Source: a bacterium (GTDB taxonomy: Bacteria > Lindowbacteria > 2-12-FULL-62-27). Taken from it: DNA of 43,044 nt. The translations under genes were made by a program, and so were the position numbers. The DNA lies in contig JACQOF010000119.1 of the NCBI GenBank assembly GCA_016202645.1, forward strand, positions 1-43,044, read 5' to 3'. Positions 1-32,096 of this stretch are shown piece by piece. Numbering within the stretch: the first letter of the stretch is position 1; each line of letters begins with the position of its first letter. A model generated the notes under the pieces. The model was given only the letters and a program-made list of their open reading frames with translations. It was not told where the DNA came from and did no database searches.

Positions 1-3000
1 GGGGACACGGCGGCGGTGGTGTACGTGGACAACAACGACGCGACGGACGTGGCGTTGGACACGGCGCTGTTCACGGACGCTCCAAGAACCGCGACGGTGA
101 CGTTCTATGAGAACCAGGGCTACACGGACGACGTGGACACGTATCTGCCGAGGAACGACGCGGTGTTCATCGAGGTGGTGGACTTTGACCAGAACATCAG
201 CCCGCTGATCCGTGACACGGTGACCGTGACGGTGTGGGTCGGGGACCACGCGACGGGCGTGGTGATTGACACGGAGGTATTCGTGTTGACGGAGTTTGGG
301 GAGACGACGGAGGTATTCCGGAGCGACACGATCGCGGTGGTGGACACAGAGTATCCGATTATCTCGAACAACGGCCGGATCACCGCGGGACTCGGGGACA
401 CCCTGCACGTGCATTACGCGGATCCGTCGAGTCCGGAGGACACGGTATATGACACAGCCCTGATCGTAGACGCGCCGACGGCGAGCGTGACGGCGATCTA
501 CGAGGACGCGAATTACACGAACAACGTGGACACCCTGCTCACGCGTGACGTGATGTACGTGCAGGTGACGGATGTGGACGAGAACCGCAATCCGCAGAGC
601 AGGGACACCGTCTGGGTGATGCTCTACGTCGCCAACGCCACCATCGGCGGTGGCGCCGCGGGACTCATCGTCGACACCGAGCGTCTGACTCTGACCGAAT
701 CCGGCGAGACCACCGGGGTGTTCCGGCAGGACAATATCATGCTCACCGACACGAAGTTCCCCGGTGTGAATGACGGGATCGTGAGCTGGGGCATGGAGGA
801 CACCATCCATGTGGTCTACGAGGACGTGAACAGTGTCGACACGACCAGCGACACCGCCCTGGCGATTGAGATCAAAACCACCGGCACAGTCCAGTTCTTC
901 GAGGACGCCGCGTTCTCTGACGACGTGGACACGTTCGTGCCGAGAAACGATGTCGTTTATATCGAAGTGGCCGACACCGACGAGAACCGGAACCCGCAGA
1001 CCGTCGAAACCGTGGTGGTGACAGTCTGGGTCGGCAACGATCTGACCGGCGTGACGCTCGATACGGAAGTCTTTATCCTGACCGAGCTGGGAGAAACGAC
1101 CGGCCGGTTCCGGAGCGCCGCGATCGCGCTGGTCGACACCGAGTATCCGATCATTTCCCAAAACGGCCGCCTGACCCTGGGGCTGGATGATACGCTCCAC
1201 GTCGCGTACACCGACTCCAACGAGGTCACGAGCACCGCGTTGGACACGGCCCTGATCGTGGACGCGCCCACCGTCAGCGTCCCGCAATTCTATGAGGACG
1301 CAGCCTTCCAGGATGCCGTCGATACGTTTATTCCAAGGAACGATGTGATTTTTGTACAGGTGCAGGACACGGACGAAAACCGGAATCCCCAGAGCATCGA
1401 CACCGTCCGAGCCACCTTGTACGTCGGCAACGGCGCCGGCGAGGGCGGCGGAATCGGGCTGGTTCTCGACACGGAGGTTCTGATTCTGACCGAGGCGGGA
1501 GAGACGAGCGCCATGTTCCGCAGTGCCGCCATCGCTCTCATCGACACGGAATACCCGATTGTTTCGCAGAACGGCCGCCTGACCGTCGGCCTGGACGACA
1601 CGCTTGCCCTGGTCTACGGCGACGTCAACAGCGCCGACACCACGCAGGACACGGCGCTCATCGTTGACGCTCCGACTGTCTCCGTCATCCAGCTCTATGA
1701 GGACGCCGCCCACACCAACCAGGTGGACACCTATCAAACCCGCGACGTTCTCCGGATCCAGGTGACCGACACGGACGAAAACCGGAATCCGCAGGCCACG
1801 GACACGATCCGCGTGACTGTCTATGTCGGGAACGGCACGACGGAGGGAGAAGCGGCGTCCCTCGTTCTGGATACAGCGACGCTGATCCTGACGGAGGCCG
1901 GCGAGACGAGCGCGATGTTCCGAAGCGGGGACGTGATGCTGACCGACACGAAAGTTCCGAGCGTGACCGACGGCATCATCAGCTGGGGCCGGGGGGACAC
2001 CCTCCACGTTGTCTACGGCGACGTCAATTCGGCCGATACAGTCTCGGATACCGCCTTGGCAGTCGAAATCCCGTCCGTAGCCAGCATCGTCATCTATGAG
2101 GATGCGGGCTATCTCGATGAGACCGACACGCTCCTGACCCGGGACAATCTCTACATTCAGGTCACCGACACGGATGAAAATCGAAATCCCCAGCGCGCCG
2201 ACACGGCCGCCGTCACGCTTTATGTCGCCAACGCGACCTTCGGCGGCGGCGCGATCGGCCTGGTTCTGGACACCGAAATTCTCATTCTGACCGAAGCCGG
2301 GGAAACGAGCGGCGTTCTTCGCAGCGGCGTGGTGACGGCCACCGACACGGCCGTTCCGGCGGTAAACGACGGCGTCGTGACGTGGGGCCTCTCGGACACG
2401 CTTCACGTCGTCTACACCGACGTGACGGGCTCGGCCGAAAGCGTCTTCGACACGGCCCTGGCCATCGAGATTCCGACCGTCTCGGCCGTGACGCTCTACG
2501 AGGACGTGACGTTCGCGGACGCCGTTGACACCTTCCTCGTTCGAAATGACGTCATCCACATCGAGCTGGTTGATCTGGACGAAAACGCGAATCCCCAGAG
2601 CGTCGATACAGTGCAGGTGACGCTCTACGTCGGCGATCACTACACCTCCCTGATCCTTGATACGGAAACCATCGTCCTCACCGAGATCAGCTCCGCGTCG
2701 GGCCGGTTCCGGAGCGACACCATCGCGGTGGTCGACACGGAATTTCCGCTCGTCTCCCTGAACGCGCGCCTGGCGGCCGGACTCGGCGACACCCTGCACG
2801 TCGCCTACGTCGACGCCACGAACCCCGCCGACAGCGCCGTCGACACGGCGCTCTTCGTGGACGCGCCGACGCCCAGCATCACGCGCATTTTCGAGGACCG
2901 GTTCTTTACGGACGAAACGGACACCCTGCTCACCCGCGACGTCGTCTATCTCGAACTTCAGGACACCGACGAGAACCGGAACCCGCAGAGCCGCGACACG

Positions 3001-6000
3001 GTGATCGTGACCGTCTACGTCGGCGACCATGCGACGGGTCTTCTGGTCGATACCGACGTCTTCACGCTGACCGAGGCTGGCGAAACGAGCGGCGTCTTCC
3101 GGAGCGACACGGTGCAGCTCACCGACACGAAGTTCCCATCCGTCAATGACGGGATCATCAGCTGGGGCCGGGCCGACACGATCCACGTCGTCTATGGGGA
3201 TGTCAACAGCGTCGACACGACGAGTGACACGGCGCTGGCGATCGAGATTCCGACAGCCGTCCGGGTCCAGCTCTACGACGACGCCAATTACAGCGACGAC
3301 GTCGACACATTCCTGACGCGGGACGCGATGTACATCCAGGTCCAGGACACGGACGAAAACCTGAATCCCCAGACAAAAGACACGGTGGCCGTGACGATCT
3401 ATGTGGCCAACGCCACCTCCGGCGGCGGCGCGGCCGGCCTGGTCGACGACACCGAGGTTCTGACCCTGACCGAGACCGGCGAGACCACGGGTATTTTCCG
3501 CGTCGGCAATGTCATGCTGACTGACACCGTCGTCCCGACCGTGAACGACGGCATCGTCAGCTGGGGCCGGGACGACACGATGCACGTGGTCTACACCGAC
3601 CCGACCGGCGTCACGACCGATATGGGCTTTGACACGGCTTTGGCGGTTGAAATCCGGAGCGCCTCGACCGTCCAATTTTACGAGAACGCAGCCTTCACCG
3701 ACCCGGTTGACACGTTCAGCGCGCGAACCGACGTTGTCTACATCGAAGTAGCCGACACGGACGAAAACCGGAACCCCCAGGCCATCGAAACGGTGACCGT
3801 CACGATCTGGATCGGCGACGATGCAACGGGCACGGCGCTGGACACCGAGGTCATGATTCTGACCGAGACCGGCGAGACGACCGGCATCTTCCGTAGTTCC
3901 GCGATTGCGATCATCGACACGGAATTCCCGCTGACGTCCCAGAACGGCCGTCTGGCGCTGGGTCTTGGGGACACCCTCCATGTCGCGTACACTGATTCGA
4001 ACGACGCGACGGACGTCTCCGTCGACACCGCCCTCGTCGTGGACGTTCCGTCGGCGAGCGTCGCCGAATTCTACGAGGATGCCGCCTTCCAGGACGCGCC
4101 GGACACCTTCCTGCCGCGAAATGACGTCGTGTATATCCAGATTCACGACACGGACGAGAACCGCAACCCGCAGAGTCGGGATACCGTCACCGTCACGGTC
4201 TTTGTGGGGAACGGCCTGGCGGAGGCCGGCGGGCTGGGTCTGGTCATCGACACCGAAGTCTTCATCCTGACCGAAGCCGGCGAGACCAGCGCCATGTTCC
4301 GGAGCGCCGCGATTCTCCTGGCGGACACGGAATATCCGATCCAGGTCCAGAACGGACGACTGACGGTGGGTCTGGATGACACGATCCACCTGGCCTACAC
4401 CGACTCCAATTTCGCCGCCGACGCCGACTTCGACACCATCCATATTGTCGACGCGCCGGTCGCGAGCGTCACGCAGATATTTGAGGACGCCGGCTACTCG
4501 GACGAGGTTGACACGCTTTCGACGCGCGACGTTCTCTACGCGCAGGTCATGGACACGGACGAGAACCGAAACCCGCAGGCGAAGGACACCGTGCGGGTGA
4601 CCGTTTTCGTGGCTGACCACGCGGCGGGTCTGATCATCGACACGGAAGTCCTCATCCTGACCGAGGGCGGGGAGACGACGGGAACGTTCCGGAGCGGAGA
4701 AGTGGTTGTGACCGACACAACGGTTCCCTCTGTGAACGACGGCGTGGTGAGTTGGGGCCGGAGCGACACGATCCACGTGCGCTACGAGGACGTCAACAGT
4801 CCCGACACCACGAGCGACACGGCCCTGGCCGTCGAGATCGTCACCGTCGCCCAGGTCCTCTTCTATGAGGACGCTCTCATCACCGACCCGGTTGACACTT
4901 ATCTCACGCGGGATGTGATGTACCTGGCTGTTCACGACACGGACGAAAACCTGAACCCGCAGGCGCGCGATACCGTCACCGTGACGATTTACGCCGGCAA
5001 CGGCGTCTCCGAGGGAGTGAATGCCGGGGGTCTTGTCCTCGACACGCAGACCCTGGTCCTGACCGAAAGCGGGGAAACGACGGGCGTCTTTTTGAGCGAC
5101 ACGATCACCCTGACCGACACGGAGTTCCCGGTCGTCGAGAACGGCCGGATCTCCTGGGGCCGCGGGGACACGATGCACGTAGTTTATGTGGACCAGACCG
5201 GCGTGACCGAAAGCGTGTTCGACACGGCCCTGGCGATCGAGATTCCCACCAAGACCTTTGTCCAGTTCTACGAGGATTCGGGGTTCATCGACGACGTCGA
5301 CACCTACCTGACGCGGGACGAAATGTATATCGAAGTCCGGGACACCGACGAGAACCGGAACCCCCAACTGCGCGACACGGTTCTGGTGACCGTCACCGTC
5401 GGAAACGACACGGACGGCCAGGTGATCGACGTTGACACCTTCGTTTTGACCGAGACCTCCGAGACGAGCGGGGTCTTCCGGAGCGCCCGGATCGTTCTGA
5501 CGGACACCGTGACGCCCGTATTCGGCGACGGCATCGTCACATGGGGCGAAAGCGACACGACCCTGGTGCTGTACGTGGACGTGACGGACGGCAGCGACAG
5601 CGCGACCGACTCTGCCCTGGCGATCGTGATCAAAACCTTCGCGACCGTTCAGATCTACGAAAACCGCTTCTTCACGGACGACGTCGACACCCTCTTTACC
5701 CGGGACGTGATGTACGTCGAAGTCGTCGACACGGACGAAAACCGGAATCCCCAGGTGATCGAGACCGTGACCCTCCGCCTCCACGTCGGCAACGCCGGGG
5801 ACGGCCTGGTCATCGACACCGAAATTCTGATCCTGACCGAGGCGGGCGAGACCGCCGGCATTTTCCGCAGCGACACCATCGTGGTCACCGACACGAAGTT
5901 CCCGGTGTCCGGCGACGGCTGGGTGAGCTGGGGCCTTGGGGACACAATTCACCTATCCTACGTCGACGCGAACGATCCGAACGACACGGCCTCGGACACG

Positions 6001-8690
6001 GCCCTGGCCATCGAGATATCGACTTCCGAAACCGTCGCCTTCTTCGCGTTTGCCTCGACCGACACGTATCTTCTGCCGGACACGATCGGCATCGAAGTCG
6101 TGGACCTCGACGCGAACCAGAACCCGCAGATTCGGGACACCGTCATCGTCTACATTTCCAGCTGGAACGCGAACGGGACGAACAAGATATTGATCGACAC
6201 CGAAATGCAGGTGCTGACGGAAGACTCGGAGACCTCCGGCGTGTTCCGGAATTCCCCGGCTGGCCTCCTCCTTTCCGACACGATCATCGCGGCCAGGTTC
6301 GGGAACGGATTCCTGCTGGCGGGCAGGGGGGACACGCTTCTCGTCGAGTACTTCGACATGACCGGAATCGCCATCGGCGCCGAAGCGGAGGACACGGCGT
6401 TTGTCTCGGAGGACTCGAAACCCTCGCGCGTCCGGTTCCTCAAGAGCGGCCTGGACACGGACATCTACGGCACGTCTCACGACAGCGCCCTGATCGAGGT
6501 TGTGGACGAGGACCGGAACATCGAGCCCCAGGACACGGAAGTTCTTCTGGTGCTGGTGCAGGTGGCCCAGACCGGGGACAGCGAGTACGTCCAGCTCACG
6601 CAGGTGGGTGCAGACAGCGAAGTCTGGCGCGCCATGATCTGGATTTCAGACACGCTTCCGCTGACCAAGGGCGACGGCATGCTGTCGGCTGCGAATTTCG
6701 ACACCATCTGGGTGCTCTATCAGGACACGGAATACGCGCCGGATTTCTCAACCGATACCGCGCTCATCCACCGCCGGACGCCGTCGAGCATCCAGTTTTA
6801 CGACAGCACGTACGAATCGACCACCGAGACCTACCTGCCGAAGGATTACGTGAACATCGAAGTGGTCGACACGGACGAAAACGAGAATCCCTTCGGGCGG
6901 GACACGATCACGGTCGTCATCTACGCGTCCGACGTCAGCAGCAAGAACATCCGGGACACCGAGACGATCGTTCTGACGGAGACGACCGACACGAGCGGTA
7001 TTTTCCGGAGCGCCGCCATCACCGGCCAGGACACGTTCTTCACCCGGACGCCCAACAACGGGCTGCTCGAATGGGCGGAGGGCGATTCCCTCCACGTCGT
7101 CTACGTGGACGACGATGACGCGGCGGACGGGAGTTTTGACACCGCCAACGTCAAGGCGCCTGGGCGCGTCGTTTTTGACGACACGATCTATCTCTCCATC
7201 GACACCGTCACGATCACCGTCCGGGACTTTTTCCTGAACGTGAACCCTCTCGTCCAGGAGGTGGTGTCCTGCACGGTGTTTTCGCCGTCCCTCGGCGATA
7301 CCGAGGTCATCTTCCTGACCGAAATTGGCGTGGACAGCGGCATCTTCAGCAACGACCCCGCCCGAGTCCACAACGGTTTGGGCATGTTCCTCCGGATATC
7401 CGAAACGGCGCCGGTCGTGGCCAACGACGGCATCCTGACCGTCCGTCCCGGCGATTCGATCGTCGTCCAGTATTTCTCCTTCAGCGACTCTCTCACGTCC
7501 GGGGACACCGCCCGGATAGACTTCGCGCCGACCGCATCGAAGGTTTTCTTCGACCGCACCAATTACAATTCCAACCGGACCCTGTACCTCACGCTGATCG
7601 ACTCCGACCAGCGCGGCTACTACTTAAATGAGGACACCCTCTATGTCGACGTCTACACCGGCGGCCTCGGCGGCATCCCCGCGGACAGCGAGCGGGTTCT
7701 TCTGACGGAGCTGGCCGACGCGACCGGCTTCTTCTCGGGCATCTTCACGAATCTCGCCACGCTCGGATTCCCTCTCTCAAGCGCCCCCGGCGCGAACCAG
7801 GACGGGGTGCTGAATGTGGGCCTTCTCGATACGATTTTCGTCCAGTGGCGGGACCCCAAGTTTGTGCTGGACGTGTCTCAAGACACCGCCATTTTCCTGC
7901 CGGACAGCAGTGTTGCAAGCGTCCGCCTCGTGCGGTTCCCGGGCGGCCTGGGGGCCGAAGACGCGAAAATATTCGCGGTGGGGGACTCCGTCTTCGTCGA
8001 AGTGACCGACACGGACCAGAACCTCGATCCGAACATACCGGACACCATCACCGTCGTCATCAACAGCAACAAGCTTGACGGGGTCTACCGCGACACGAAG
8101 ACCCTTGTCCTCATCGAAACGGCGCGAAGTTCCTTCCGTTTCGTTTCGCCCGGAGGCCTGATCCTGGAGACGGGCGTGGGCGCAAGCACGATCGAGGATT
8201 CCGTCCTGACCACATTCGGTCTGGACGTGATCCTCGTCTCGTTCCTCGACACCTTCACGAACACGACCGAAATCGACACCGCCGAGGTCGTCCAGCCGTC
8301 TGTCCAGTCGACCGGCCGGTTCACCGACAGCACAAACGTGTCGGTCTTCAGTTATGACGTGTCCGTCCATGACCGGCTGTACCTCGAGATCACGGACACG
8401 AACCAGAACAAGATCCTGGCCCTGTCCGAAACCGTCGCCGTGAATCTCTTCATCCACGGCGCCGGCGGTATTCAGGATTCCGCGGTCGTCCTTTTGACCG
8501 AGATCGACAACAACGACGGCATCTTCCGTATCCCGGCCGGCGTGCTCCTGCGCTATAAGGAGGACACCAATACCAATCCGGACACGTTCAACGACGGCAT
8601 CCTTTCTTTCCGGAACGGCGACACCGTCGAGTTCGTCTACGTCGACCCGGACACGGGCCTCGACACCGTCAGCGATTTCGTCCCGCTCTA
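1..8690 (+). repeat. About 22 tandem coding repeats of 390-405 nt
   Basis: The VDT..TRD landmark occurs at 136, 526, 925, 1318 and 1723, giving periods of 390, 399, 393 and 405 nt. Two subtypes alternate irregularly. Subtype A ends N-GRL..GL.DTL..Y then DTALIVDAPT. Subtype B ends NDGIVSWG..DT.HVVY then DTALAIEIPT. Units after about nt 6,100 drift strongly, and the DxDxN motif decays (for example RDFFLNVNP, TDTNQN). Confidence 0.9.
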
Positions 8691-12905: not shown

Positions 12906-12920
12906 AATTCACCTGGGATC

Positions 12921-12992
12921 GTCATTCCCGCGAAAGCGGGAATCCAGAATCTGTCGCGGCTGTTCCTGGATCCCCGCTTTCGCGGGGATGAC
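12921..12992. repeat. dRS3-like palindromic repeat (family 1), covers the start of the TPR gene
   Basis: Two 27-nt arms (12921-12947 and 12966-12992) are imperfect reverse complements (25 of 27 positions). Each arm contains a smaller hairpin of the form ATTCCCGCGAAAGCGGGAAT. Its translation gives the FPRKRES and WIPAFAGMT strings often seen where this repeat is annotated as protein. The right end (GGGGATGAC) contains the ATG at 12988 used by the next gene. Related copies lie at 18434-18535 and 31950-32096. Confidence 0.92.
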
Positions 12993-15900
12993 GACTGCGG
13001 CGCGGCCCTGCCTGGCCTTGCTGCTGTTCTTTTCGCTGATCTCGCATCCCGCGACCGCGGCGGTGTCTGACGACATGCAGTTCGCGGCGGCGCTTTACAA
13101 CGACGGACGCTACCAGGAGGCCCTCGAGGAATTCCGGCGGATTCGGGGGGGCGTTTCCGGCGGGGAATGGGAGGATGACGTTCTTTTTTGGATGTCGGAA
13201 TGCCTGTTTTACCTGAAGGATTACGACGGCGCGCTCGAACTTCACCGCACGTTGATGACCGACCATTCCCTGTTCCCCAAACTGGATGAGGTCTACGTCA
13301 AAGCCATCGCCGCGCATTACAATGCCGGCCGGCATGACCGGGTGATGGAATTGGCGGATCTTCACGCCAGAAAATTTCCCGGAGCCGAGCCCAACGACCA
13401 GGTCTATCTTTTCCGGATCCAGTCGGGCCTCAAACTCAAGGAATTCCGCCAGGTGGAGGATCTTCTGAAAACCTACCAGCGCGCGCGCCCGGGCAGTCCG
13501 TATCTCATGAGCTTGAAATCGATCCTCGCCCGGTCGTATCTCGATGCGCGGCGCCTCGCGGAGGCGCTTCCGTATTTCGAGGAACTCTACCAGTACCAGA
13601 AGGACGTCAATCTTCTGCTCTGGGTCGGAGAGTGCCGGTACCAGACGGGCGCCTTGGCCGGCGCGAAGGAGGCCTTCTCGGGATTTCTGGCGGAACAGCC
13701 CGGAAATGACGTGGCCCGGTTCAAGCTGGGCCTCTGCGAATTCCAGCTCAACCAGTACGCCCTCGCCGCCGAGACCTTCCGGCCCCTCTCCGAAAAGGCC
13801 GGAGGATTTCAGCAGGACGCGCTTTACTTCGTCGCCCAGTCTCTTCTCCATCTCGGCCGGGCCGACGCGGCCAAACAGAGCCTCGAGAATCTGTTGAAGT
13901 TGAGCCCGAAAAAAGAGCTGAGCCAGAGGGCCGTGTCCCAGCTCATATCGCTTGAGTCGAAGGGCAAGGACATCGACCAGATGATCCGGACGTACGAGAA
14001 ATATTCAGCGGAGCCGGGCAAGCAGGAGGAGATCCGTCAGTTCCGGATTTTTTCCGCCTATCAAAAACGCGATTTCACATCGGTCCTGCAATTGATCGGT
14101 TCGCCCGGGGACCGCCGCGAACAGCTGATGCTGGCCGAAAGTCTCTACGCCCTCGGCAAATACGCGGACGCCGCCCGCTCCTACGGAGAGCTTCTCGCGG
14201 CCGCCACTCAAAATTCCGAAAAACGGACGGCCTACGCGGGCCTCGCCTGGACCGCCTACGCCCAGGAGGACTATCGCCGCGCGTTCCCATATTTCCAGTC
14301 CTATCTATCCCTATCGCCGGCATCGGAAGTCACGGCGGAAGACCACCTGGCCCTGGCGCAGAGCGCGCTCGCGTCCGGCAAGGCCTCCGAAGCCATCGCC
14401 GCATACGAGCACGCGAGGAAATCATCCGAAGATCCCAAAGCCATCGCCCGGAATCTCGGGATTCTTTATTTCAACAGCGCGAACTACAAACAGGCGGTGG
14501 ACGTCCTCCAGGGATTCGAGGACGACCAGGTCCTGTCCATTGTCGGGCGTTCCTATCTCTATCTCAAACAGCCCGCCCGCGCCCTGACCTATCTTCGCAA
14601 ATTGAAACATCCGGAACGCTACGCTCTCGAAATCGGCGCCATCCATTACGAGATGGGCCAGTTCGAGGAAGCCAAAACCTATTTCGAGCAGGCCGCCGCG
14701 TCGCCGGGCGCGCCGGGCGGGGTGAACGTCGACGAATTTCTGGGGATCATCGCCTACAATCAGGGAAATTTTGTAGAAGCGGCGGCGCGCCTCCGCAAAG
14801 CCCAGCTGAAGGACCCTAACAATCCGGAAGTCCGTTTTGAGCTGGCCGCGTCGCTGATGCGGATCGAGGGCGCGCCGGAGCGGGAGCTGGTGGACATCCT
14901 GACCCAGCTCGCATCGAGTCCCGGGACACCGGAGTCCTACCGGAGCAAGGCCCGGATGTGGCTGGCTCAGCGGATGGCGTCGACCGACTTGAACAAGGCG
15001 ATGGATGAGGTCCAGCGCATGACGAGCGCATCGGACCGGACGACGACCCTGGAGGCGATGGCGACGCGTTTTTTCTCGGAACAGCGCTACGACACTGCCG
15101 TCAGCCTCTATCAACAGCTCCTGGCATCGCCCGGGCTTTCGCCGGAAAGCCGCCTGCAGGCGCTCTACGGACTCGGATGGTCGTATTACAAGATGGATCA
15201 GAAACCCAAAGCGCGCGAAACCTTCAACCGCCTGATCGCCGCATATCCCAAATCCTCCTACGCCGCCGATGCCGTGGTGCTCCTCGTCGAGGATGCCTAT
15301 GCATCGAAGCGTTATGAGGAGGCGGCGGACCTGGCCGTCCGGCATCTCGGATCCATTTCCAAGAACCAGGACCGCCTGCGATTCCTGGCCGCCGAGGCGC
15401 TCTATGAGCTCAAGAAATACGATCAGGCCCTGACGCACTACGGGGCGTATCTGCCGAAAGCGGACCAGCTCGCGGACTACGTCCGCTACCGGTCCGGCCT
15501 GTCCGCTTATCATCTCCGCCGGTATCAGCAATCCATCTCGAATTTTTCCCTCATCCGGGATACGACCCTTCTGGAACGAAAGCATTACTATCTCGGCATG
15601 TCCTACACCCACGCCGGCCGAAAGGCGGAGGCCGTGAAGGCGTTCGAGACGGTCCTGGATTTCCCGAACGGAGAATTCCGCGACGAAGCCTGGAACAACC
15701 TCGTGCTCCTCATGGAGGCGCTGGGGCAGTGGCAGAAGGCCCTGCGCTACGAGTTCCGGCTGGCGGAGAGCGAATCGGAACTTGAACGGCTGGTTTTCGC
15801 CAAGGCCCTCTATTACACAAACGACGCGCGCGCGGCGCGCTACGCGGAAAAACTGGGCTACATCGCGCGGGATCCGGCAATCGCCTCGGAGGCGCTCCTG

Positions 15901-17905: not shown

Positions 17906-18258
17906 GGGGGCGAAATGGCTTCGACGTGCTTCCTGAGGGCATGGCGGGCGCGCCGGGTCCTGTCGGGACGACCCGTTCAAACCTTCCGACACCATTCACA
18001 AACGCCAACGAACCACTGGCTCTGGCAGCCTAACTAGGCTCCGGGATCAGGATCGGCGGGCTGGACCGTCAGCGCCGCCTGATCCCACTGAACTGACGGG
18101 CTCCTGATTCGGCGGCCTTCGGCCGAATCTTGTAACCTGAAGGCTGGATCGTCGGGGCCGCCTGCGGCCTTTCGACGGTTAAGACCCATACGCGGGATAC
18201 GCGCGTAGATCGCTGTGTCCGGGATTCCCGGACGGGGGTTCGATTCCCCCCGCCTCCA
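17906..18258 (+). ncRNA. ssrA: Transfer-messenger RNA (tmRNA)
   Basis: The 5' end GGGGGCG...GGCTTCGACG is the typical tmRNA start. It pairs with CGCCTCC at 18251-18257, with one G-U pair, to form the 7-bp acceptor stem. The T arm is GGGGG-TTCGATT-CCCCC, followed by discriminator A at 18258. CCA is not encoded and must be added. The internal tag frame ends at TAA 18031-18033 and reads (T)NANEPLALAA, keeping the ALAA protease signal. GGGTC (17955-17959) can pair with GACCC (18183-18187) as part of the long P2 helix, and several further hairpins between fit the pseudoknot region. Function: frees stalled ribosomes with SmpB and tags the product for proteolysis. One-piece, not permuted. Confidence 0.93.
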
Positions 18259-18306
18259 TTCTGCTTCGCCGGAGTACGCTTACGCTTTTGGGGGCTTCGC
18301 AGAATG
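18257..18306 (-). repeat. Family 2 palindromic element, reverse copy at the tmRNA 3' end
   Basis: CATTCTGC ... GCAGAATG termini enclose the core AGTACGCTTACGCTT, which is the reverse complement of the core seen at 24582, 27296 and 28200. The left end overlaps the last two bases of tmRNA (C, A), so the element abuts the RNA gene exactly. Confidence 0.85.
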
Positions 18307-18364
18307 GACCGACGCAAGGACGTATGAGGAATCGAAAAGCGAGGCAACGGAGGCGAAGCAGAAT

Positions 18365-18413
18365 GCCCTCCGTAGCCCCCGGGAGCGTAAGCGTACTCCC
18401 GGCGAAGGAGGGC
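18365..18413 (+). repeat. Family 2 core with different termini
   Basis: The core GTAGCCCCCGGGAGCGTAAG and CGTACTCCCGGCGAA match family 2, but the ends are GCCCTCC/GGAGGGC rather than CATTCTGC/GCAGAATG, with the inverted pairing preserved. Just before it (18349-18365), GGAGGCGAAGCAGAATG resembles the right end of a standard copy, so 18257-18413 may hold the remains of two or three insertions. Confidence 0.75.
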
Positions 18414-18433
18414 GGTCTGTTTTGAAGACTGGT

Positions 18434-18535
18434 AACTATTCAGGTCGTCATGCCCGCGAAAGCGGGCATCCAGACCAATCGCAAAGCAGACTGGATTCCC
18501 GCTTTCGCGGGAATGACGGCGAGAGCTGAATAGTT
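18434..18535. repeat. dRS3-like palindromic repeat (family 1), full-length copy
   Basis: The outer ends AACTATTCAG (18434-18443) and CTGAATAGTT (18526-18535) are exact inverted repeats. Inside are two small hairpins, ATGCCCGCGAAAGCGGGCAT and ATTCCCGCTTTCGCGGGAAT. This defines a 102-bp unit and gives the best view of the intact element. It lies between tmRNA and the amidase gene. Confidence 0.9.
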
Positions 18536-24092: not shown

Positions 24093-24551
24093 ATGAGACT
24101 GTTGGACATTCTTTCGAAAGACTGCATCAAGGCGGATCTGAAGGGCAAGAGCCGCCGGGAAGTCATTCAGGAAATGGTGGATCTGCTGGTCAAGGCCGGC
24201 CGGGTCAAGGACAAGCCGAAGGTGATGGAAGCGGTGATGGAGCGTGAGAAGCTCATGAGCACCGGCATCGGCAACGGGGTTGCCATTCCCCACGCCAAGA
24301 CCAACGCCTGCGACCGGCTCTGCGCGGCGTTCGGCCGGTCGGCCGGCGTGCCGTTTGACGCGCTGGACGAGAAGCCGGTCCGTCTGATTTTTCTCTTGAT
24401 CACCCCGGAGGCCGAGACCGGCCCGCACATCAGCGCCCTGGCGAGAATCTCGCGGCTGCTCAAGCACAAGGTCTTCAAGGACGCTTTGCTCGGCGCCAAG
24501 GACGACAGCGAGATTTACCGCATCATCGAGGAGGAGGAGCGGAGGCGTTGA
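24093..24551 (+). CDS. ptsN: PTS IIA-like nitrogen regulatory protein
   Basis: 152 residues with AGGAGAGG just upstream. EIIA fold; the phosphoryl-accepting His67 lies in GVAIPHAKT, and the family motif PHISALARISRLLK is present. It belongs to the nitrogen-related PTS and signals phosphorylation state rather than moving sugar. No nitrogen-specific EI (PtsP) or NPr is seen here, so the general EI and HPr at 29.9-31.9 kb may phosphorylate it (inference). Confidence 0.94.
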   Translation: MRLLDILSKDCIKADLKGKSRREVIQEMVDLLVKAGRVKDKPKVMEAVMEREKLMSTGIGNGVAIPHAKTNACDRLCAAFGRSAGVPFDALDEKPVRLIFLLITPEAETGPHISALARISRLLKHKVFKDALLGAKDDSEIYRIIEEEERRR

Positions 24552-24581
24552 TGTTCCGCGAAGACGCAGTCCCGGCGGGTC

Positions 24582-24632
24582 CATTCTGCGAAGCCCCCAG
24601 AAGCGTAAGCGCACTCCCGGCGTAGCAGAATG
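24582..24632 (+). repeat. Family 2 palindromic element supplying the hprK start
   Basis: 51 bp, CATTCTGC to GCAGAATG, core AGCGTAAGCGCACTCCCGGC. The terminal ATG (24630-24632) is the hprK start codon. It sits 30 nt after the ptsN stop. This copy has CGTAGCAGA before the ATG, lacking the GGAG found in the 27296 and 28200 copies. Confidence 0.92.
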
Positions 24633-25628
24633 CCCCTTCCCGTTCGGGAATTCTTCAACAACGAAAAAAACCTTCATCTGCAGTTCGTCTCCGGCGATGG
24701 GGGACTTGGCCGCATCATCCGGTCTCCCGAGATCGTCCGGCCCGCCGCGGCATTCGCCGAAGGCGTCTGGCCGGCGGGATTAAAAAAATCCGGCCGGAGG
24801 CCGCCTCCAAAAGTCCGCCGGGCCGTCGAGGGGTCCGTTTGGATTTTCGGATCGTTTGAAATCGGAGCGATTCGGGCAGTGCCCGCCGCCGTCCGGGGGC
24901 GCTTCATGGATTTTTTTCGGACCTGCCGACCCTCAGCCGCCATATTTGTCGAAGGCCAGTCCCCGGCCAAACTGGATGCGTCTCTCGTCCGGCAGACGTC
25001 CATACCCATCTTCACGTCACGCCTGCCCTACACCCGGTTCCTCTCCGCCTTTCACGCCTTTTTGCAGAACCGCCTCGCCCCCCGGACCAACGTCCACGGA
25101 ACCCTCCTCAGCATCTTCAATCACGGCGTCCTTCTTCAGGGCCCGAGCGGCGTCGGCAAATCGGAAATCGCCCTCTCGCTTATCGAACGGGGTCATCAGC
25201 TCGTCGCCGACGACACCGTTCAGATCCGGCTGGAACAAAATCGCGATTTGGTCGGCTCGGCGCCGGAACTGGGCCGCCACCACATGGAAATCCGCGGCAT
25301 CGGCATTCTCAACGTCCGGCAGCTCTTCGGCATCTCGGCCGTCGCGGAGGAACATAACATCCACCTCATCGTCGACCTTCTGTCCCCGTCAGCCATGGGC
25401 CGCCGCGAAGAGAGGCTCGGCGGGTACCACCTGAAGCGAATCCTCGGGGTTGAAGTTCCCCGCGTCGTGGTCCAGGTCCGGACGGGCCGGCATATGGCGG
25501 TGATTATCGAGGCCGCCACGCGGAACCAGCAGCTCAGAAATCTCGGGTATGACGCCGCGCGCTCTTTCCACAAAAGCCTCGACCGACTCCTCGGCGCCCC
25601 GCGCCCAACCGCCAAACCCGGCCGATAA
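24630..25628 (+). CDS. hprK: HPr kinase/phosphorylase
   Basis: 332 residues. N-terminal substrate-related domain (about 1-145) and C-terminal kinase domain with His156 in NVHG, Walker A GPSGVGKS (171-178), VADD, and the family signature MEIRGIGILNVRQLFG (219-234). It phosphorylates a serine of HPr using ATP or PPi and reverses it by phosphorolysis. Its target motif is intact in the HPr encoded at 29861 (Ser51). The start codon is contributed by the repeat at 24582-24632. The N-terminus MPLPVREFFN agrees with family starts, so the true start is probably right. Confidence 0.95.
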   Translation: MPLPVREFFNNEKNLHLQFVSGDGGLGRIIRSPEIVRPAAAFAEGVWPAGLKKSGRRPPPKVRRAVEGSVWIFGSFEIGAIRAVPAAVRGRFMDFFRTCRPSAAIFVEGQSPAKLDASLVRQTSIPIFTSRLPYTRFLSAFHAFLQNRLAPRTNVHGTLLSIFNHGVLLQGPSGVGKSEIALSLIERGHQLVADDTVQIRLEQNRDLVGSAPELGRHHMEIRGIGILNVRQLFGISAVAEEHNIHLIVDLLSPSAMGRREERLGGYHLKRILGVEVPRVVVQVRTGRHMAVIIEAATRNQQLRNLGYDAARSFHKSLDRLLGAPRPTAKPGR

Positions 25629-25635
25629 CGATCCC

Positions 25636-26028
25636 TTGCCGGCCCTCGAAGTCGCCGTCATGTCCTTCGGATACAAGTTCGGCCTGCCCGGCCACGCCGA
25701 CATTGTGCTGGACGTGCGATTTTTGCCGAATCCCTTTTACGTCCCCGCCCTCTCCACGCTCACAGGCCTGGACCCGAATGTCCGGGAGTATGTGGAAAAG
25801 GAGGAGGACACGCGCGTCTTTCTGGAAAAGACGGAGGACTGGCTGACATTTCTGATCCCGAAATACATCGGGGGCGGCAAATCGCTTCTGAATCTCGCCA
25901 TCGGCTGCACCGGCGGCCGGCACCGGTCCGTCTGTGTGGCGGAACGCCTCCGAGAATTTCTGGAACAGCGCTTCATCCGCAAGGACGCCCTTCAAGTCTC
26001 CATCCTCCACAGGGACATCGGTAAATGA
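25636..26028 (+). CDS. RapZ C-terminal-domain protein lacking the kinase half
   Basis: About 130 residues. The pattern SFGYKFGLP.HADIVLDVRFLPNP, LTGLDPNVREYV and IGCTGGRHRSVCVAERL is that of the RapZ C-terminal domain, the part that binds small RNA and glucosamine-6-phosphate in E. coli. The N-terminal P-loop domain (about 150 residues) is absent; hprK occupies the upstream DNA. The start is uncertain: TTG 25636 keeps the first strand (LEVAV) and lies 7 nt after hprK; ATG 25549 would overlap hprK by 80 nt; ATG 25660 would lose the strand. It overlaps the YvcK gene by ATGA. Stand-alone RapZ-C proteins probably exist elsewhere, but I cannot check. Confidence 0.82.
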   Translation: MPALEVAVMSFGYKFGLPGHADIVLDVRFLPNPFYVPALSTLTGLDPNVREYVEKEEDTRVFLEKTEDWLTFLIPKYIGGGKSLLNLAIGCTGGRHRSVCVAERLREFLEQRFIRKDALQVSILHRDIGK

Positions 26029-27347
26029 ATCGCCGGCTCATCGCCGTCCTTCTCCGGCCCGGCCTCTATCTCAAGCGCTGGCTGTTTCTCGGGGGCTTCG
26101 GCGTCTTCATCGCGTTCTGGGGCATGCGCCGGATCCAGGACGAAGTCCACAAATTTCCGGTGAAGTTGAATCTTCAGCTCATGCTCATCATCGTCGGCGC
26201 CGGCCTCTTTCTCTTTGCCGTTTACAAATTCGTCTCATCCGCCCTCAAGTATGCCGGATTCACACGACAGGCCTTTTACCGAAGCCTCATTGACCAGAGG
26301 TACCTGGCCCGGGGCCCGCGGATCGTTGCCATCGGCGGCGGGACCGGTCTGGCCACGATCCTGTCGGGACTCAAGGAAATTACGTCCAACATCACGGCCT
26401 GCGTGACCGTCACGGACGAGGGCGGCAGTTCCGGCAAACTCCGGGACACCTTCGGCATGATTGCTCCCGGCGACATCCGCAACTGCATCGTCGCGCTTTC
26501 CGCCGAACCGGGCCTGCTCGCGGAACTCTTCACCTACAGGTTTCAGGAAGGGGACGGTCTCAAGGGCCACAGCGTCGGCAATCTGCTGATAGCGGCCCTG
26601 ACCCAGATCACCGGAAGTTTTGAAAGCGCCATCCGGGAATCTTCCCGGGTCCTTTCCATCCGCGGGCGCGTCTGCCCCCTCTCTCAAGACGACATCCGCC
26701 TTGCGGCCACCATGGCGGACGGTACGACGCTCCGGGGCGAGGCGGAAATCGGCAGGGCGTCCCAGCCGATTGCGCGGCTTAGAATTGAACCGGAAAATTT
26801 TGCCGTTACGCCCGAAGTTCTCGCCGCGATCCGCGAGGCCGATCTGGTCGTTGTGGGTCCCGGCAGCTTGTACACGAGTATTCTGCCCAACCTCCTGCAT
26901 CCCGAATGCCGGAAAGCTCTTCTGGAAACTCCCGCGCCCGTGGTGTACATTTGTAATGTCATGACCCAGATTGGAGAAACGGCCCGGTTCACCGCCTCAG
27001 ACCATGTCCGCGTCGTCTACGAGCATACCGCGCCGGGGCTGTTCGACTGGATCCTCCTCAACAGCGCCGCGCCCGATCCCGCCGCCATCGAGCGGTACGC
27101 GCTCGAAGGCGCGGTGCCGGTCAAGGCCGACATCGACGCCCTCCGCCATCTCGGCCTCCGGATCATGGCGGGTGATTTCCTCATCGGCGATGTCGAAGTC
27201 GAGACCGCCGAAGGCCGCAAGCACGTGCTCCGGCATGACGCGACCGCGATCGCGCTCAAGCTCCTCCCGCTGTGCCTGCCGGAAGGTTCGCCGTCCATTC
27301 TGCGAAGCCCCCCGAAGCGCAAGCGTACTCCCGGCGGAGCAGAATGA
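26025..27347 (+). CDS. Membrane-anchored YvcK/GlmR (CofD-like) protein
   Basis: 440 residues. Two N-terminal membrane helices (about 18-34, WLFLGGFGVFIAFWG, and 49-70) precede the CofD-like domain (about 95-415): IVAIGGGTGLATILSGLKE, TDEGGSSGKLRDTFGMIAPG, GHSVGNLLIAALTQ, VVGPGSLYTSILPNLL. In Bacillus, YvcK/GlmR controls carbon flow into wall precursors and binds UDP-GlcNAc. RapZ family proteins also sense the amino-sugar pathway, so the pairing makes sense. The last 17 residues (SILRSPPKRKRTPGGAE) are encoded by the family 2 repeat and are not family sequence. The stop overlaps the next ATG inside the repeat end. Confidence 0.9.
   Translation: MNRRLIAVLLRPGLYLKRWLFLGGFGVFIAFWGMRRIQDEVHKFPVKLNLQLMLIIVGAGLFLFAVYKFVSSALKYAGFTRQAFYRSLIDQRYLARGPRIVAIGGGTGLATILSGLKEITSNITACVTVTDEGGSSGKLRDTFGMIAPGDIRNCIVALSAEPGLLAELFTYRFQEGDGLKGHSVGNLLIAALTQITGSFESAIRESSRVLSIRGRVCPLSQDDIRLAATMADGTTLRGEAEIGRASQPIARLRIEPENFAVTPEVLAAIREADLVVVGPGSLYTSILPNLLHPECRKALLETPAPVVYICNVMTQIGETARFTASDHVRVVYEHTAPGLFDWILLNSAAPDPAAIERYALEGAVPVKADIDALRHLGLRIMAGDFLIGDVEVETAEGRKHVLRHDATAIALKLLPLCLPEGSPSILRSPPKRKRTPGGAE
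27296..27346 (+). repeat. Family 2 element: yvcK tail plus EIIA start codon
   Basis: 51 bp, CATTCTGC to GCAGAATG, core AGCGCAAGCGTACTCCCGGC. In the yvcK frame it encodes ILRSPPKRKRTPGGAE and ends at TGA (27345-27347), which overlaps the EIIA start ATG (27344-27346). GGAG lies 4 nt before that ATG, so the element carries a weak ribosome site as well. Confidence 0.93.
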
Positions 27348-27727
27348 AGCGCCGCGTCCTCGTGGTTACCCATGGCCGGGTCGGGGAGGAGCTGGTCGCC
27401 ATTGCGCGCGACCTGCTCGGCGAAGTTAAGGACCTCGACGCCCTCCACATTGATTCCAACGACTCGATGCAGGCCATCTCATCCCGGATGCAGAAGTGGG
27501 CCGCCCGAATCGAGTCCGGCGACCGCGGTCTTGTTCTGACTGACCTGAAAAATTCCAGCGCCACCGTCTCGGCCCTCGCGCTCTCAAAAAAATATCCGCT
27601 CGACTGCGTCTGCGGCGTCAATCTGCCGCTCCTCCTGAAGGCCCTCTCGGCCTCCGTGCCTGGCGTCCCGGAAATCCTGGACGCGGGCCGAAGGGGCATC
27701 GACGCCGTGTCACCCAAATCAAGATGA
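27344..27727 (+). CDS. PTS EIIA, mannose/fructose family
   Basis: 127 residues. His10 in VLVVTHGRVGEEL is the phosphorylation site. The fold pattern (VTDLKNSSATVSAL, VCGVNLPLLLKAL) is that of the ManX-type IIA domain. It takes phosphate from HPr and passes it to the EIIB encoded next (4-nt overlap). The start ATG is the end of the repeat; ATG at this point gives a family-typical N-terminus. It is a stand-alone IIA rather than a IIAB fusion. Confidence 0.93.
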   Translation: MKRRVLVVTHGRVGEELVAIARDLLGEVKDLDALHIDSNDSMQAISSRMQKWAARIESGDRGLVLTDLKNSSATVSALALSKKYPLDCVCGVNLPLLLKALSASVPGVPEILDAGRRGIDAVSPKSR

Positions 27728-28263
27728 TTAGTTTGGTCCGCATCGACGACCGGCTCGTTCACGCCCAGGTGGTTGTCGGGTGGCTCGAATATTTGAGGTG
27801 CCGTCATATCCTCGTCGCCGACGACCGCGTCGCTCAGGATGAGGAACAACTGGACCTGCTTCGGATGGTCATTCCGGAGGACGTCCGGATCGACGCGGTC
27901 GAGGTTGCGTCGATCGTGGATCAATCCGGGGATATCGACGCGGCCGACCGCCCGGTCCTCGTCCTGTTTGCTGATCCGATGAGCCTCCGGGCGGCTGTCG
28001 ACGCCGGATTCAAACCCCGGCTTGTCAATCTCGGCGGCATGCACGACGCGCCGGGGCGCCACTCGTGGATCCATGGACTTTTTGCGTCCGACTCGGAAAT
28101 CGCCGCGATCCGGGACATGATCGGGATGGGCATCGAATTCGAAATCAGATCAGTCCCGGCCGCCCGCCGCCGCGAGGTGGAAGGCGCCCCGGCGGCTTCC
28201 ATTCTGCGTAGCCCCCCGAAGCGCAAGCGCACTCCCGGCGGAGCAGAAGGCGGAGCAGAATGA
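27724..28263 (+). CDS. PTS EIIB, mannose/sorbose family
   Basis: 179 residues. The active His13 lies in RIDDRLVHAQVVVGWLE, the family signature. The body (VADDRVAQDEEQLDLLRM, LVLFADPMSLRAAVDAG, LVNLGGMHDAPGR) fits IIB of the mannose class, which phosphorylates the sugar on the inner face of the IIC-IID channel. The final residues (SILRSPPKRKRTPGGAEGGAE) come from the family 2 repeat and match the YvcK tail; the natural protein probably ended before residue 157. Confidence 0.93.
   Translation: MISLVRIDDRLVHAQVVVGWLEYLRCRHILVADDRVAQDEEQLDLLRMVIPEDVRIDAVEVASIVDQSGDIDAADRPVLVLFADPMSLRAAVDAGFKPRLVNLGGMHDAPGRHSWIHGLFASDSEIAAIRDMIGMGIEFEIRSVPAARRREVEGAPAASILRSPPKRKRTPGGAEGGAE
28200..28262 (+). repeat. 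Family 2 element: EIIB tail plus EIIC-D start, with internal duplication
   Basis: 63 bp. Same ends and core as the 27296 copy, plus one extra 12-bp unit: GGCGGAGCAGAA occurs twice in tandem before TG. In the EIIB frame it gives the shared basic tail plus an extra GGAE. The terminal ATG (28260-28262) starts the EIIC-D gene, and TGA 28261-28263 stops EIIB. Confidence 0.93.
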
Positions 28264-29870
28264 CCCTCCCCGACACGATCCTCTTCTCGGCCCTGGCCGC
28301 GCTCATCTCCATGGATCAGATGGCCTGTTTTCAGATGCTCCTGTCCAGACCCATCCTCACGGCGCTGGTCCTCGGGAGCCTCTTCGGAAATCTCGGCGAC
28401 GCTCTCTTCGTCGGCGTTACCTTCGAGTTTCTCTTTGTCCGGTCTATCTCCCTCAAGGAACGCGCGGCGGCCGATCCCGCCCTCGCCACCGCCGCCACCC
28501 TCGGCGGCATGTGGGGAACTCCACCCATCTCGGGCATGCCGGACGGCTTCGTGCTCGCGCCCTTTGCGGCCGGTCTGGCGCTCCTCGCGTCGTTTCTGTC
28601 CAAGTGGTTTGACGTGAGGCTTCGCACCGTGAACGTCTCCATCTCGCACCGTCTGCACCGCCCCGGATTCATTCAGCTCTCGGCGGCCTCGGCGCTCCTC
28701 GCCAAATCTTTCGGATTTTATCTGCTCGCCATTCTCGCCGTTCAGGGCGCCCTGCCTCACATTTGGCATCTTCTGGGTGACGCCGTATACCCGGCCGGCG
28801 TTTTGTGCTGGGGCACGCTCCTCTCCATCTGCATGGCCTTCTCGGGCACGACACTGCTTCAGAATCGAGTCTCCGCCTTTCTGTGGCTGGGAGCACTGAT
28901 GCTGGGCCTCATCCTCGTGATCCTCCCTCACCGGGTGGGGGCCGGCTTGGAGGTGACGGTGCTCGGCGTCTACGCGGCTTTTTTGACGCTGGTCAGTGTG
29001 GAAATCGCGGTGCGTTGGGGGCGCCGCGGAAATCTGGAGGACAAGGCCTCCGTGATTTCTCCGGCGCGGCCGGAAGGGGTTTCCCCGTGGGATATTTTTT
29101 TCAAGTCTTTTTTCGTCCAGGCGGCATGGAATGACGAGCGCATGCAGAACATCGGCTTTTTGTTTGCCGTGAGGAAAAGTCTCAGCCGAATCTGGCGGGA
29201 GGAACCCCGGCAGTTTGATGAGGCCTGCGCCCGGTCGTCCACGTTCTTCAATACCCACCCCTATTTCTCGCCGGCTCTCATGGGTATGGTGGTCCACATC
29301 GAGGAAAAAATAGCGGAGGGCCTTGCCCTGCCGGAGGATGTCGAGTCCGCCAAGGGCCGGATCGGCCCGCCGTTGAACGCATTGGGCAGTCTCTGGTTCT
29401 GGGACCATTTAAAAGTGCTCTGCTTCCTGATGGCTCTGCCCCTCCTCATGCTCCCGCATCCCCGGGCGGTTGCCTTCGGCGCCATCGCCATGTTCGTGTG
29501 CTTCAACATCTCGCATCTTCGCACCCGCTGGCTCGGGCTTGACCTGGGCCTTCGGTTTGGGGAAGGCATGGTCAAGGACCTGATCGAGCGGTTTCCAAGC
29601 CGGAGACTTGCGGCCTACCGTCGGGCGTCCGCTTTCCTGCTGGGGCTTGCCACTCCCCTCGTGATGTCCAGCCTCTATCTCCACGCGCAGTCCCGGTTTC
29701 CGCCCTTGTCCGATGCGCTTTTTCTGCCCGATCTTTTTCTGTTCCGGATTCTGGCCGGCCTGTCGATTGTCTGCGCGGCCATGATCATCCTCTACTACCG
29801 GTGGCTGTCGGTCTATCAATGCATTGCCGTGGCCGGCGCCGTCCTGGTCGGAGCGGTCCGATGGGCCTAG
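28260..29870 (+). CDS. Fused PTS EIIC-EIID sugar channel, mannose family
   Basis: 536 residues. Residues 1 to about 245 are a IIC domain (hydrophobic helices; MACFQMLLSRPILTALVLGS, LGDALFVGVTFEFLFV). Residues about 275-536 are a IID domain, with FFKSFFVQAAWNDERMQNIG, FFNTHPYFSPALMGMVVHIE and several C-terminal helices. In the usual mannose-class PTS these are two proteins; here one frame joins them through a short linker (RRGNLEDKASVISPARPEG) with no stop. It would import and present a sugar to EIIB. Substrate unknown. HPr overlaps its end by 10 nt. Confidence 0.9.
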   Translation: MTLPDTILFSALAALISMDQMACFQMLLSRPILTALVLGSLFGNLGDALFVGVTFEFLFVRSISLKERAAADPALATAATLGGMWGTPPISGMPDGFVLAPFAAGLALLASFLSKWFDVRLRTVNVSISHRLHRPGFIQLSAASALLAKSFGFYLLAILAVQGALPHIWHLLGDAVYPAGVLCWGTLLSICMAFSGTTLLQNRVSAFLWLGALMLGLILVILPHRVGAGLEVTVLGVYAAFLTLVSVEIAVRWGRRGNLEDKASVISPARPEGVSPWDIFFKSFFVQAAWNDERMQNIGFLFAVRKSLSRIWREEPRQFDEACARSSTFFNTHPYFSPALMGMVVHIEEKIAEGLALPEDVESAKGRIGPPLNALGSLWFWDHLKVLCFLMALPLLMLPHPRAVAFGAIAMFVCFNISHLRTRWLGLDLGLRFGEGMVKDLIERFPSRRLAAYRRASAFLLGLATPLVMSSLYLHAQSRFPPLSDALFLPDLFLFRILAGLSIVCAAMIILYYRWLSVYQCIAVAGAVLVGAVRWA

Positions 29871-31949: not shown

Positions 31950-32096
31950 AACTGTTCAGGTCGTCATGCCCGCCCCGTGTCTGTCATTCCCGCGAAAGCG
32001 GGAATCCAGCGCGGGGTAAACTCCAGCGGGCATCCAGACAATGGCGAAGCAGACTGGATTCCCGCTTTCGCGGGAATGACGGAGAGGGCTGAATAC
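31950..32096. repeat. Composite dRS3-like repeat with another repeat inserted in its hairpin tip
   Basis: The outer unit matches the intact copy at 18434-18535: AACTGTTCAGGTCGTCATGC at the left and GCAGACTGGATTCCCGC to GGCTGAATA at the right. Where the intact copy has the loop GAAA between CATGCCCGC and GCGGGCATCCAG, this one has 52 nt (31974-32025) containing a further ATTCCCGCGAAAGCGGGAAT hairpin flanked by CCCCG/CGGGG. The right end falls 5 nt before the next reading frame. Confidence 0.85.

Follow-up and report, generated by a model that had tools for sequence, protein, structure and literature searches.

The yvcK–PTS locus and its shared tail

The window, by which we mean the whole 43,044-nucleotide stretch of DNA analysed here, carries on its forward strand a gene of the CofD/YvcK family (yvcK, 26025..27347) followed by genes of a mannose-type PTS. 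These encode a mannose-family EIIA (27344..27727), a sorbose/mannose-family EIIB (27724..28263) and an EIIC joined to EIID as a single protein (28260..29870), and the two neighbours of EIIB are named by Pfam as EIIA-man and as EII-Sor plus EIID. Reading the open reading frames directly, YvcK and EIIB both end in SILRSPPKRKRTPGGAE, the full C-termini being ...PEGSPSILRSPPKRKRTPGGAE for YvcK and ...APAASILRSPPKRKRTPGGAEGGAE for EIIB, each followed by the stop codon. The tails are encoded by two copies of one repeat, both on the + strand, at 27294..27347 in the yvcK/EIIA junction (covariance model R1, E 5.4e-18) and at 28198..28263 in the EIIB/EIIC junction (E 8.7e-17; tail SILRSPPKRKRTPGGAEGGAE). 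The extra GGAE on the EIIB tail derives from a tandem 12-nt duplication (GGCGGAGCAGAA twice) within its repeat copy, and the repeat copies that follow YbeY and NuoJ have duplications of the same kind.

The Pfam domains end well before these tails, at residue 386 of YvcK (CofD/YvcK, residues 100–386) and residue 147 of the 179 in EIIB (PTSIIB_sorb, residues 2–147), so the tails lie outside the family domains of both proteins; the native part of YvcK runs to near residue 423. The earlier note had claimed that one tail is shared by unrelated proteins, which is borne out for YvcK and EIIB. The span that it gave, 27296–28263, is the right locus, although its start falls 2 nt inside the first copy. 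The overlap of each tail's TGA with the downstream ATG, also claimed there, is present at both copies: TGA 27345–27347 lies over the EIIA ATG at 27344–27346, and TGA 28261–28263 over the EIIC ATG at 28260–28262. Both downstream genes take their start codon from the end of the repeat. The yvcK/EIIA copy includes a GGAG at 27336–27339 that is a possible Shine–Dalgarno sequence.

Another copy in the window (24580..24633, +; E 7.0e-18) lies between an EIIA gene (PTS_EIIA_2) and the HPr kinase gene hprK (24630..25628, +), which starts at the ATG of the repeat (24630). Here a TAG within the copy (24623–24625), 4 nt upstream of the hprK ATG, closes a 24-residue leader reading frame, MFREDAVPAGPFCEAPRSVSALPA (24551..24625, +), that begins at a TGATG over the EIIA stop codon. 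A further copy (18256..18308, −; E 1.4e-16) abuts the 3' end of the tmRNA gene in the opposite orientation, where no gene starts, and inverted relative to it is a copy of a second subfamily with the outer stem CCCTCC/GGAGGG (18362..18415, +; E 2.6e-12 with R1, and 7.6e-15).

A dispersed repeat with a covarying hairpin

We searched the single genome from which the window comes, a 2.9 Mb draft of an uncultured bacterium in 146 contigs that is 82% complete. A 70-nt query found 20 places at E <= 0.002, covariance model R1 gave 20 matches at E <= 1.3e-10, and covariance model R2 gave 22 confident copies at E <= 7.6e-11, while a pattern scan returned 16 real matches against 0 for a reversed control pattern. 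Because the DNA search, the covariance searches and the reversed control agree, the match between the YvcK and EIIB tails is not due to chance. An assembly artefact was rejected, as the copies are spread over many contigs, each with its own unique flanks, and their sequences differ.

The core of the repeat is ATTCTGC-G(A/T)A-GCC-...-GC(4)GC-...-GGC-G(G/A/T)A-GCAGAAT. It is usually 49 nt long, or 61 nt with the 12-nt duplication, and variants of 47 and 50 nt occur within the overall range of 47–61 nt. The outer stem differs in the second subfamily and again in the atpG copy, which has ATTCTAC/GTAGAAT. In a set of 13 diverse members, four pairs of the outer stem show changes in both partners, with 18 cells of double-sided change observed against 7.3 in shuffles; the stem covariation score was reached by 0 of 500 shuffles, and controls with a slid 3' partner scored far lower. 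Alignment A1 alone, with one covarying pair, makes a weak case for the hairpin, which becomes convincing once the second subfamily is included. As the outer stem covaries, the repeat is a hairpin at the DNA or RNA level. The G(A/T)AG and G(G/A/T)AG tetranucleotides sit in its internal loop and not at its foot, and the right arm places a GGAG, GAAG or GTAG four bases before an ATG whose first two bases lie within the stem.

An Rfam search gave no family matching the repeat copies themselves. We rejected a promoter or terminator role, as the hairpin is not followed by a T-run and the places occupied by the copies are between genes or within them. Few copies show a clean target-site duplication: at pilB/pilC, rplQ, nuoJ and atpG the element is flanked on both sides by ATG or ATGA, which elsewhere is lost or absent. 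The left border of the copies is ragged (TCC, CCC, ATG or CAT), and TCC precedes many of them.

Copies end in the start codons of downstream genes

With their terminal ATG, 15 of the 22 copies supply the start codon of a gene that can be identified, and all 15 are in the sense orientation. According to Pfam matches and orthologue alignment, these genes are gatB, EIIA-man, hprK, nuoJ, nuoH, a CBS-domain gene, a CNNM gene, EIIC-EIID, pyrG, nuoK, pilC, an epimerase gene, rplQ, glgA and atpG. For 13 of the 15 proteins encoded downstream, a sister genus offers an orthologue match, and most of these alignments begin at residue 1, which supports the starts in question.

The other seven confident copies comprise a second copy at pilB, one forming the N-terminus of CobS (with a TTG start at a TTGA overlap), an insertion in a sulfite/nitrite reductase, two inverted CCCTCC partners and the two beside tmRNA. 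The reductase insertion is of the CCCTCC type and in frame (G000:C21:18003-18056, L069), and it lies in a linker (SPLRSPQERERTPGEGG) that is different in the sister genera. Fragments of the repeat also form part of the Rpe N-terminus and the end of a 263-residue reading frame on contig C130. Among the 22 copies, all but the two at tmRNA touch a gene, a leader or a tail.

REPs are found between genes, mostly after stop codons and in either orientation. The repeat could be an ordinary extragenic palindrome of the REP or BIME kind, moved by a RAYT transposase, whose coding overlaps are incidental in a compact genome. It resembles REP, BIME and REPIN elements (e.g. PMC3116915) in being palindromic with G(T/A)AG beside the stem and in forming inverted pairs of the two subfamilies, which occur in four clusters (pilC, nuoH, pyrG and tmRNA); that at pilB-pilC, known from this single strain, has two direct copies around one inverted copy. 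The genome also holds 10 Y1_Tnp genes of RAYT-like size, about 290–330 residues (L207-L214, G000). However, the repeat is neither extragenic nor randomly oriented, given that for 15 of 22 copies the last bases are exactly a start codon, in sense in 15 of 15 cases. There was no real R1 match around the eight of the 10 Y1_Tnp loci that were fetched, nor was a linked transposase found beside the repeat copies examined. One RAYT-like gene (L213) adjoins an unrelated palindrome of the ATTCCCGCGAAAGCGGGAAT type. We consider a REP origin unlikely.

Reading frames through the repeat

At all 15 junctions an open reading frame traverses the element and stops within −4 to +4 nt of the downstream start, the stop being the TGA of ATGA in 12 cases and a TAG in three. 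At six of them the upstream protein gains a tail (GatA, YvcK, EIIB, YbeY, NuoJ and UDP-glucose dehydrogenase). At most of the remaining junctions the upstream gene has kept its stop codon, at or near which a leader reading frame begins, as in MILRSPQKRKRTPGGAE after pilB, MPILRSPQKRKRTPGEAE after nuoI, MSILRSTPEPKARSAK after atpA and MFCVAPKSDSGNRGEAE after rpoA. Leader start codons of the form DTG lie near the upstream stop of pilB, nuoI, nuoD, the TPP-enzyme gene, rpoA, atpA and EIIA; the leader before the CBS gene has a GTG start, and that which lies between nuoD and nuoH is longer. Behind pilB the frames form a daisy chain, in which a TGA/ATG overlap opens a 17-residue leader, a second opens a 37-residue leader and a third opens pilC. 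The glgA leader is weak, with a TTG start, and the start of the pyrG crossing frame lies off the contig.

Three of the downstream genes do not begin with ATGA, namely hprK and the epimerase gene (ATGC) and atpG (ATGG). A TAG beside the ATG is present in the copies of all three and in none of the 12 copies at ATGA genes (Fisher exact p = 1/455 = 0.0022); it takes the form GGCGTAGCAGA twice and GCGAAGTAGA once, with the stem partner altered to match. At glgA, rplQ and pilC the 47- and 50-nt variants return other entry frames to the same TGA. The match of TAG to these genes, together with the length variants, favours selection for a stop codon beside the start over selection for the peptide. Some agreement of frame would be expected simply if insertions whose frame runs on into the gene behind them are purged.

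The notion of a portable module of tail plus coupling, put forward in the earlier note, is supported: at every one of the 15 junctions the repeat lies upstream of, and in the same orientation as, a start codon that it supplies or abuts. The tail is not the point of the module, because where the upstream stop survives the same peptide is found as a free leader or an N-terminus, so that the tail looks like a by-product of a ribosome being kept in motion as far as the next start.

Another reading is that of a basic peptide kept by selection, in which SPPKRKRTP would be a portable C-terminal tag for RNA or membrane binding or for targeting. Differences among 11 aligned copies are distributed 174 : 80 : 38 over codon positions 3 : 2 : 1, so conservation is better in the peptide than in the DNA, which is a point for the tag, yet when variable columns are counted the bias is weak (8 of 15 at position 3). 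The same peptide is found as a free leader (pilB, nuoI, atpA, nuoD), at the N-terminus of CobS and Rpe and inside sulfite reductase, and it is carried by integral membrane, cytosolic and translation proteins alike. The rplQ, pilC, glgA and hprK copies are read in another frame, giving another peptide, and yet keep the stop–start junction, and homologues of YvcK and EIIB manage without the tail. A selected tag is in our view very unlikely, and nothing was found in support of the suggestion that its KRKR segment acts on RNA or membranes.

Absence from orthologous junctions

The two sister genomes, G001 and G002, represent other genera of the same family, and their orthologous junctions were located with one chimeric protein query. 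The repeat is absent from every readable orthologous junction in both, some of these repeat-free junctions being ATGA or GTGA overlaps. The sister EIIB proteins end in ...DGDFEA or ...VHRSS, each with a plain ATGA to EIIC, and YvcK of G001 ends in ...RLCRPT. The pilB/pilC junction reads TTTATGAGTCC in G002 against ATTATGA, the elements and then ATGAGTCC in this genome; at glgA, G002 has TGATCCATG, with TGATCC joined directly to ATG, where this genome has the element between TGATCC and ATG. As the readable orthologous junctions are empty in both sister genera, the insertions are specific to this lineage.

The tail motif occurs in 0 of 81 YvcK homologues, and EIIB is untailed in both sister genera, so the tailed homologues that by the earlier note would have refuted its reading were not found there. 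The best named relatives of YvcK are mostly from Omnitrophota, at 40–47% identity. Each sister genome has one good but diverged copy of the repeat, which in G001 lies at a GTGA overlap and is read in the same frame (...VLRSPQKPKAMSGEGGKE); a second match in G001 is inside a cobalamin riboswitch. CCCTCC-like hairpins are seen within cobalamin riboswitch aptamers (RF00174) in this genome (L231, G000:C106:13162-13218) and in G001 (L229, G001:C28:32834-32874).

A widespread conserved element was rejected, since the pattern scan covered 386 genomes and, beside the 16 matches in this one, gave only four, in three other genomes, so that the repeat is essentially limited to this genome. Three of the outside pattern matches were inspected and none starts a recognisable gene. 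In G038, G043, G044 and G050 there are weak R1 matches, for most of which other hairpins or chance account; one in G044 (L085) ends in the ATG of a 300-residue reading frame, with no reading frame through it.

That the repeat is a trans-responsive cis-regulatory RNA, co-regulating the 15 junctions as a leader-peptide or riboswitch-like regulon, is hardly credible despite the conserved hairpin over a Shine–Dalgarno sequence and start codon, the leader reading frames, the many core genes (nuo, atp, gatB, rplQ, pyrG) and the related hairpins inside riboswitch aptamers, for the copies lie mid-operon, neither sister genus has one at a readable orthologous junction, the loop is not conserved beyond the needs of coding and pairing, and no Rfam family matches the copies.

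Probable insertion with preserved coupling

We think it probable that the repeat has been transposed into coupled start codons in such a way that coupling is preserved, and that it is comparable to the MIRU of mycobacteria while being built as a hairpin in an unrelated host. It would be a dispersed, non-autonomous element of about 49 nt, presumably moved by transposition through a mobilising enzyme, that enters the start codons within operons in sense, in several cases at stop–start overlaps (ATGA, GTGA, TAATG). The left arm of the element would then be translated. Where the upstream stop has been lost, the ribosome would read through the element and add the tail SILRSPxKRKRTPGGAE; where the stop has been kept, it would restart at the start codon of the insertion point and make a leader of 16–37 residues. 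By either route the hairpin would be opened and termination would take place 0–4 nt from the downstream start, at which the same or a new ribosome would initiate. If the ribosome is carried through to the next start in this way, an essential operon would suffer no harm from the insertion, and the basic tail would be a by-product.

The start region is predicted to be less accessible than at the orthologous empty junctions, with a mean unpaired value of 0.37 against 0.48 (p 0.0013), and its predicted opening energy is 11.4 against 8.1 kcal/mol (p 0.017). This is a modest difference in accessibility, and in total local folding energy there is none (p 0.93). We infer that a ribosome on the left arm opens the stem and stops at the start codon. 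Two routes of coupling have been described, RNA unfolding and termination–reinitiation (PMC12548453; PMC6728339). Both could apply to the repeat junctions.

A further step would be that the element evolved independently as a MIRU-like mobile hairpin which packs a ribosome-binding site, a start codon and a leader frame into fewer than 50 nt and is thereby able to enter the starts of essential-operon genes without polarity, and that later selection adds stops and indels that keep a stop beside the start. To us the case for this fuller account is about evenly poised.

Comparison with known elements

Mycobacterial interspersed repetitive units (MIRU) were reportedly described by Supply et al. in 1997. 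They are repeats of 40–100 bp at tens of scattered sites in one genome (PMC2734929), are apparently mobile, and insert at start codons with a reading frame of their own that is coupled downstream at −4; insertion is likely to have minimal impact and to be nearly neutral (PMC12548453). The repeat described here is like MIRU in its insertion at the start codons of operon genes in the same orientation (15 of 22 copies, all sense) and in its coupling by −4 overlap, which here is achieved in 12 of 15 cases by the TGA of ATGA and in three by a TAG within 4 nt. It differs in having a covarying hairpin with a Shine–Dalgarno-like motif and start codon in the 3' arm, in its frequent fusion to the upstream protein, in the compensating TAG where the gene does not begin with ATGA, in having few direct tandem arrays, and in a host lineage unrelated to mycobacteria. 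We do not claim membership of MIRU, because the comparison was made by description and the host is unrelated.

Rickettsia palindromic elements (RPE) are said to have been described by Ogata et al. in 2000. They are about 150 bp long and nearly half of them are found inside genes (PMC10969869). As with RPE, palindromes inserted in frame give unrelated genes one peptide, here in CobS, Rpe, sulfite reductase and the tails. In contrast to RPE, the copies here are 47–61 nt long, few lie inside a protein (CobS, Rpe and sulfite reductase), and they form a stop–start junction for the next gene, which is not described for RPE (PMC10969869).

Within the open literature searched, this is apparently an independent second example of how a repeat can persist in gene-dense operons: it settles on start codons and leaves translation coupled. 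The roughly 15 junctions with the insertion, and their orthologues without it, amount to a natural experiment on what coupling requires. The element also accounts for identical tails on unrelated proteins without any shared function, which is relevant to annotation and to inference from domains. Should the independent origin of a MIRU-like hairpin hold, start-codon insertion with coupling would be a recurrent strategy of small repeats and not a mycobacterial oddity.

Other features of the window

At the tmRNA gene (window 18256–18415) the 3' end is the exact start of the ATTCTGC/GCAGAAT palindromes (...CTCCA followed by TTCTGC), and a palindrome takes the same position at the tmRNA end in an unrelated genome (L084, G050:C244, from 1466). 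Palindromes at tmRNA 3' ends may be a pointer to the target sequence. A second palindrome family, CGTCATTCCCGCGAAAGCGGGAATCCAG, often in inverted pairs, is found in the window at 12919–12994, 18444–18518 and 31975–32088. Between hprK and yvcK, a short reading frame (25549–26028) looks by eye like RapZ in its C-terminal half, the N-terminal ATPase half being apparently absent. The first part of the window (1–8500) is an array of some 20 copies of a unit of about 390–400 nt, 60–80% alike, which has the look of coding DNA for a repetitive protein, possibly one at the cell surface.
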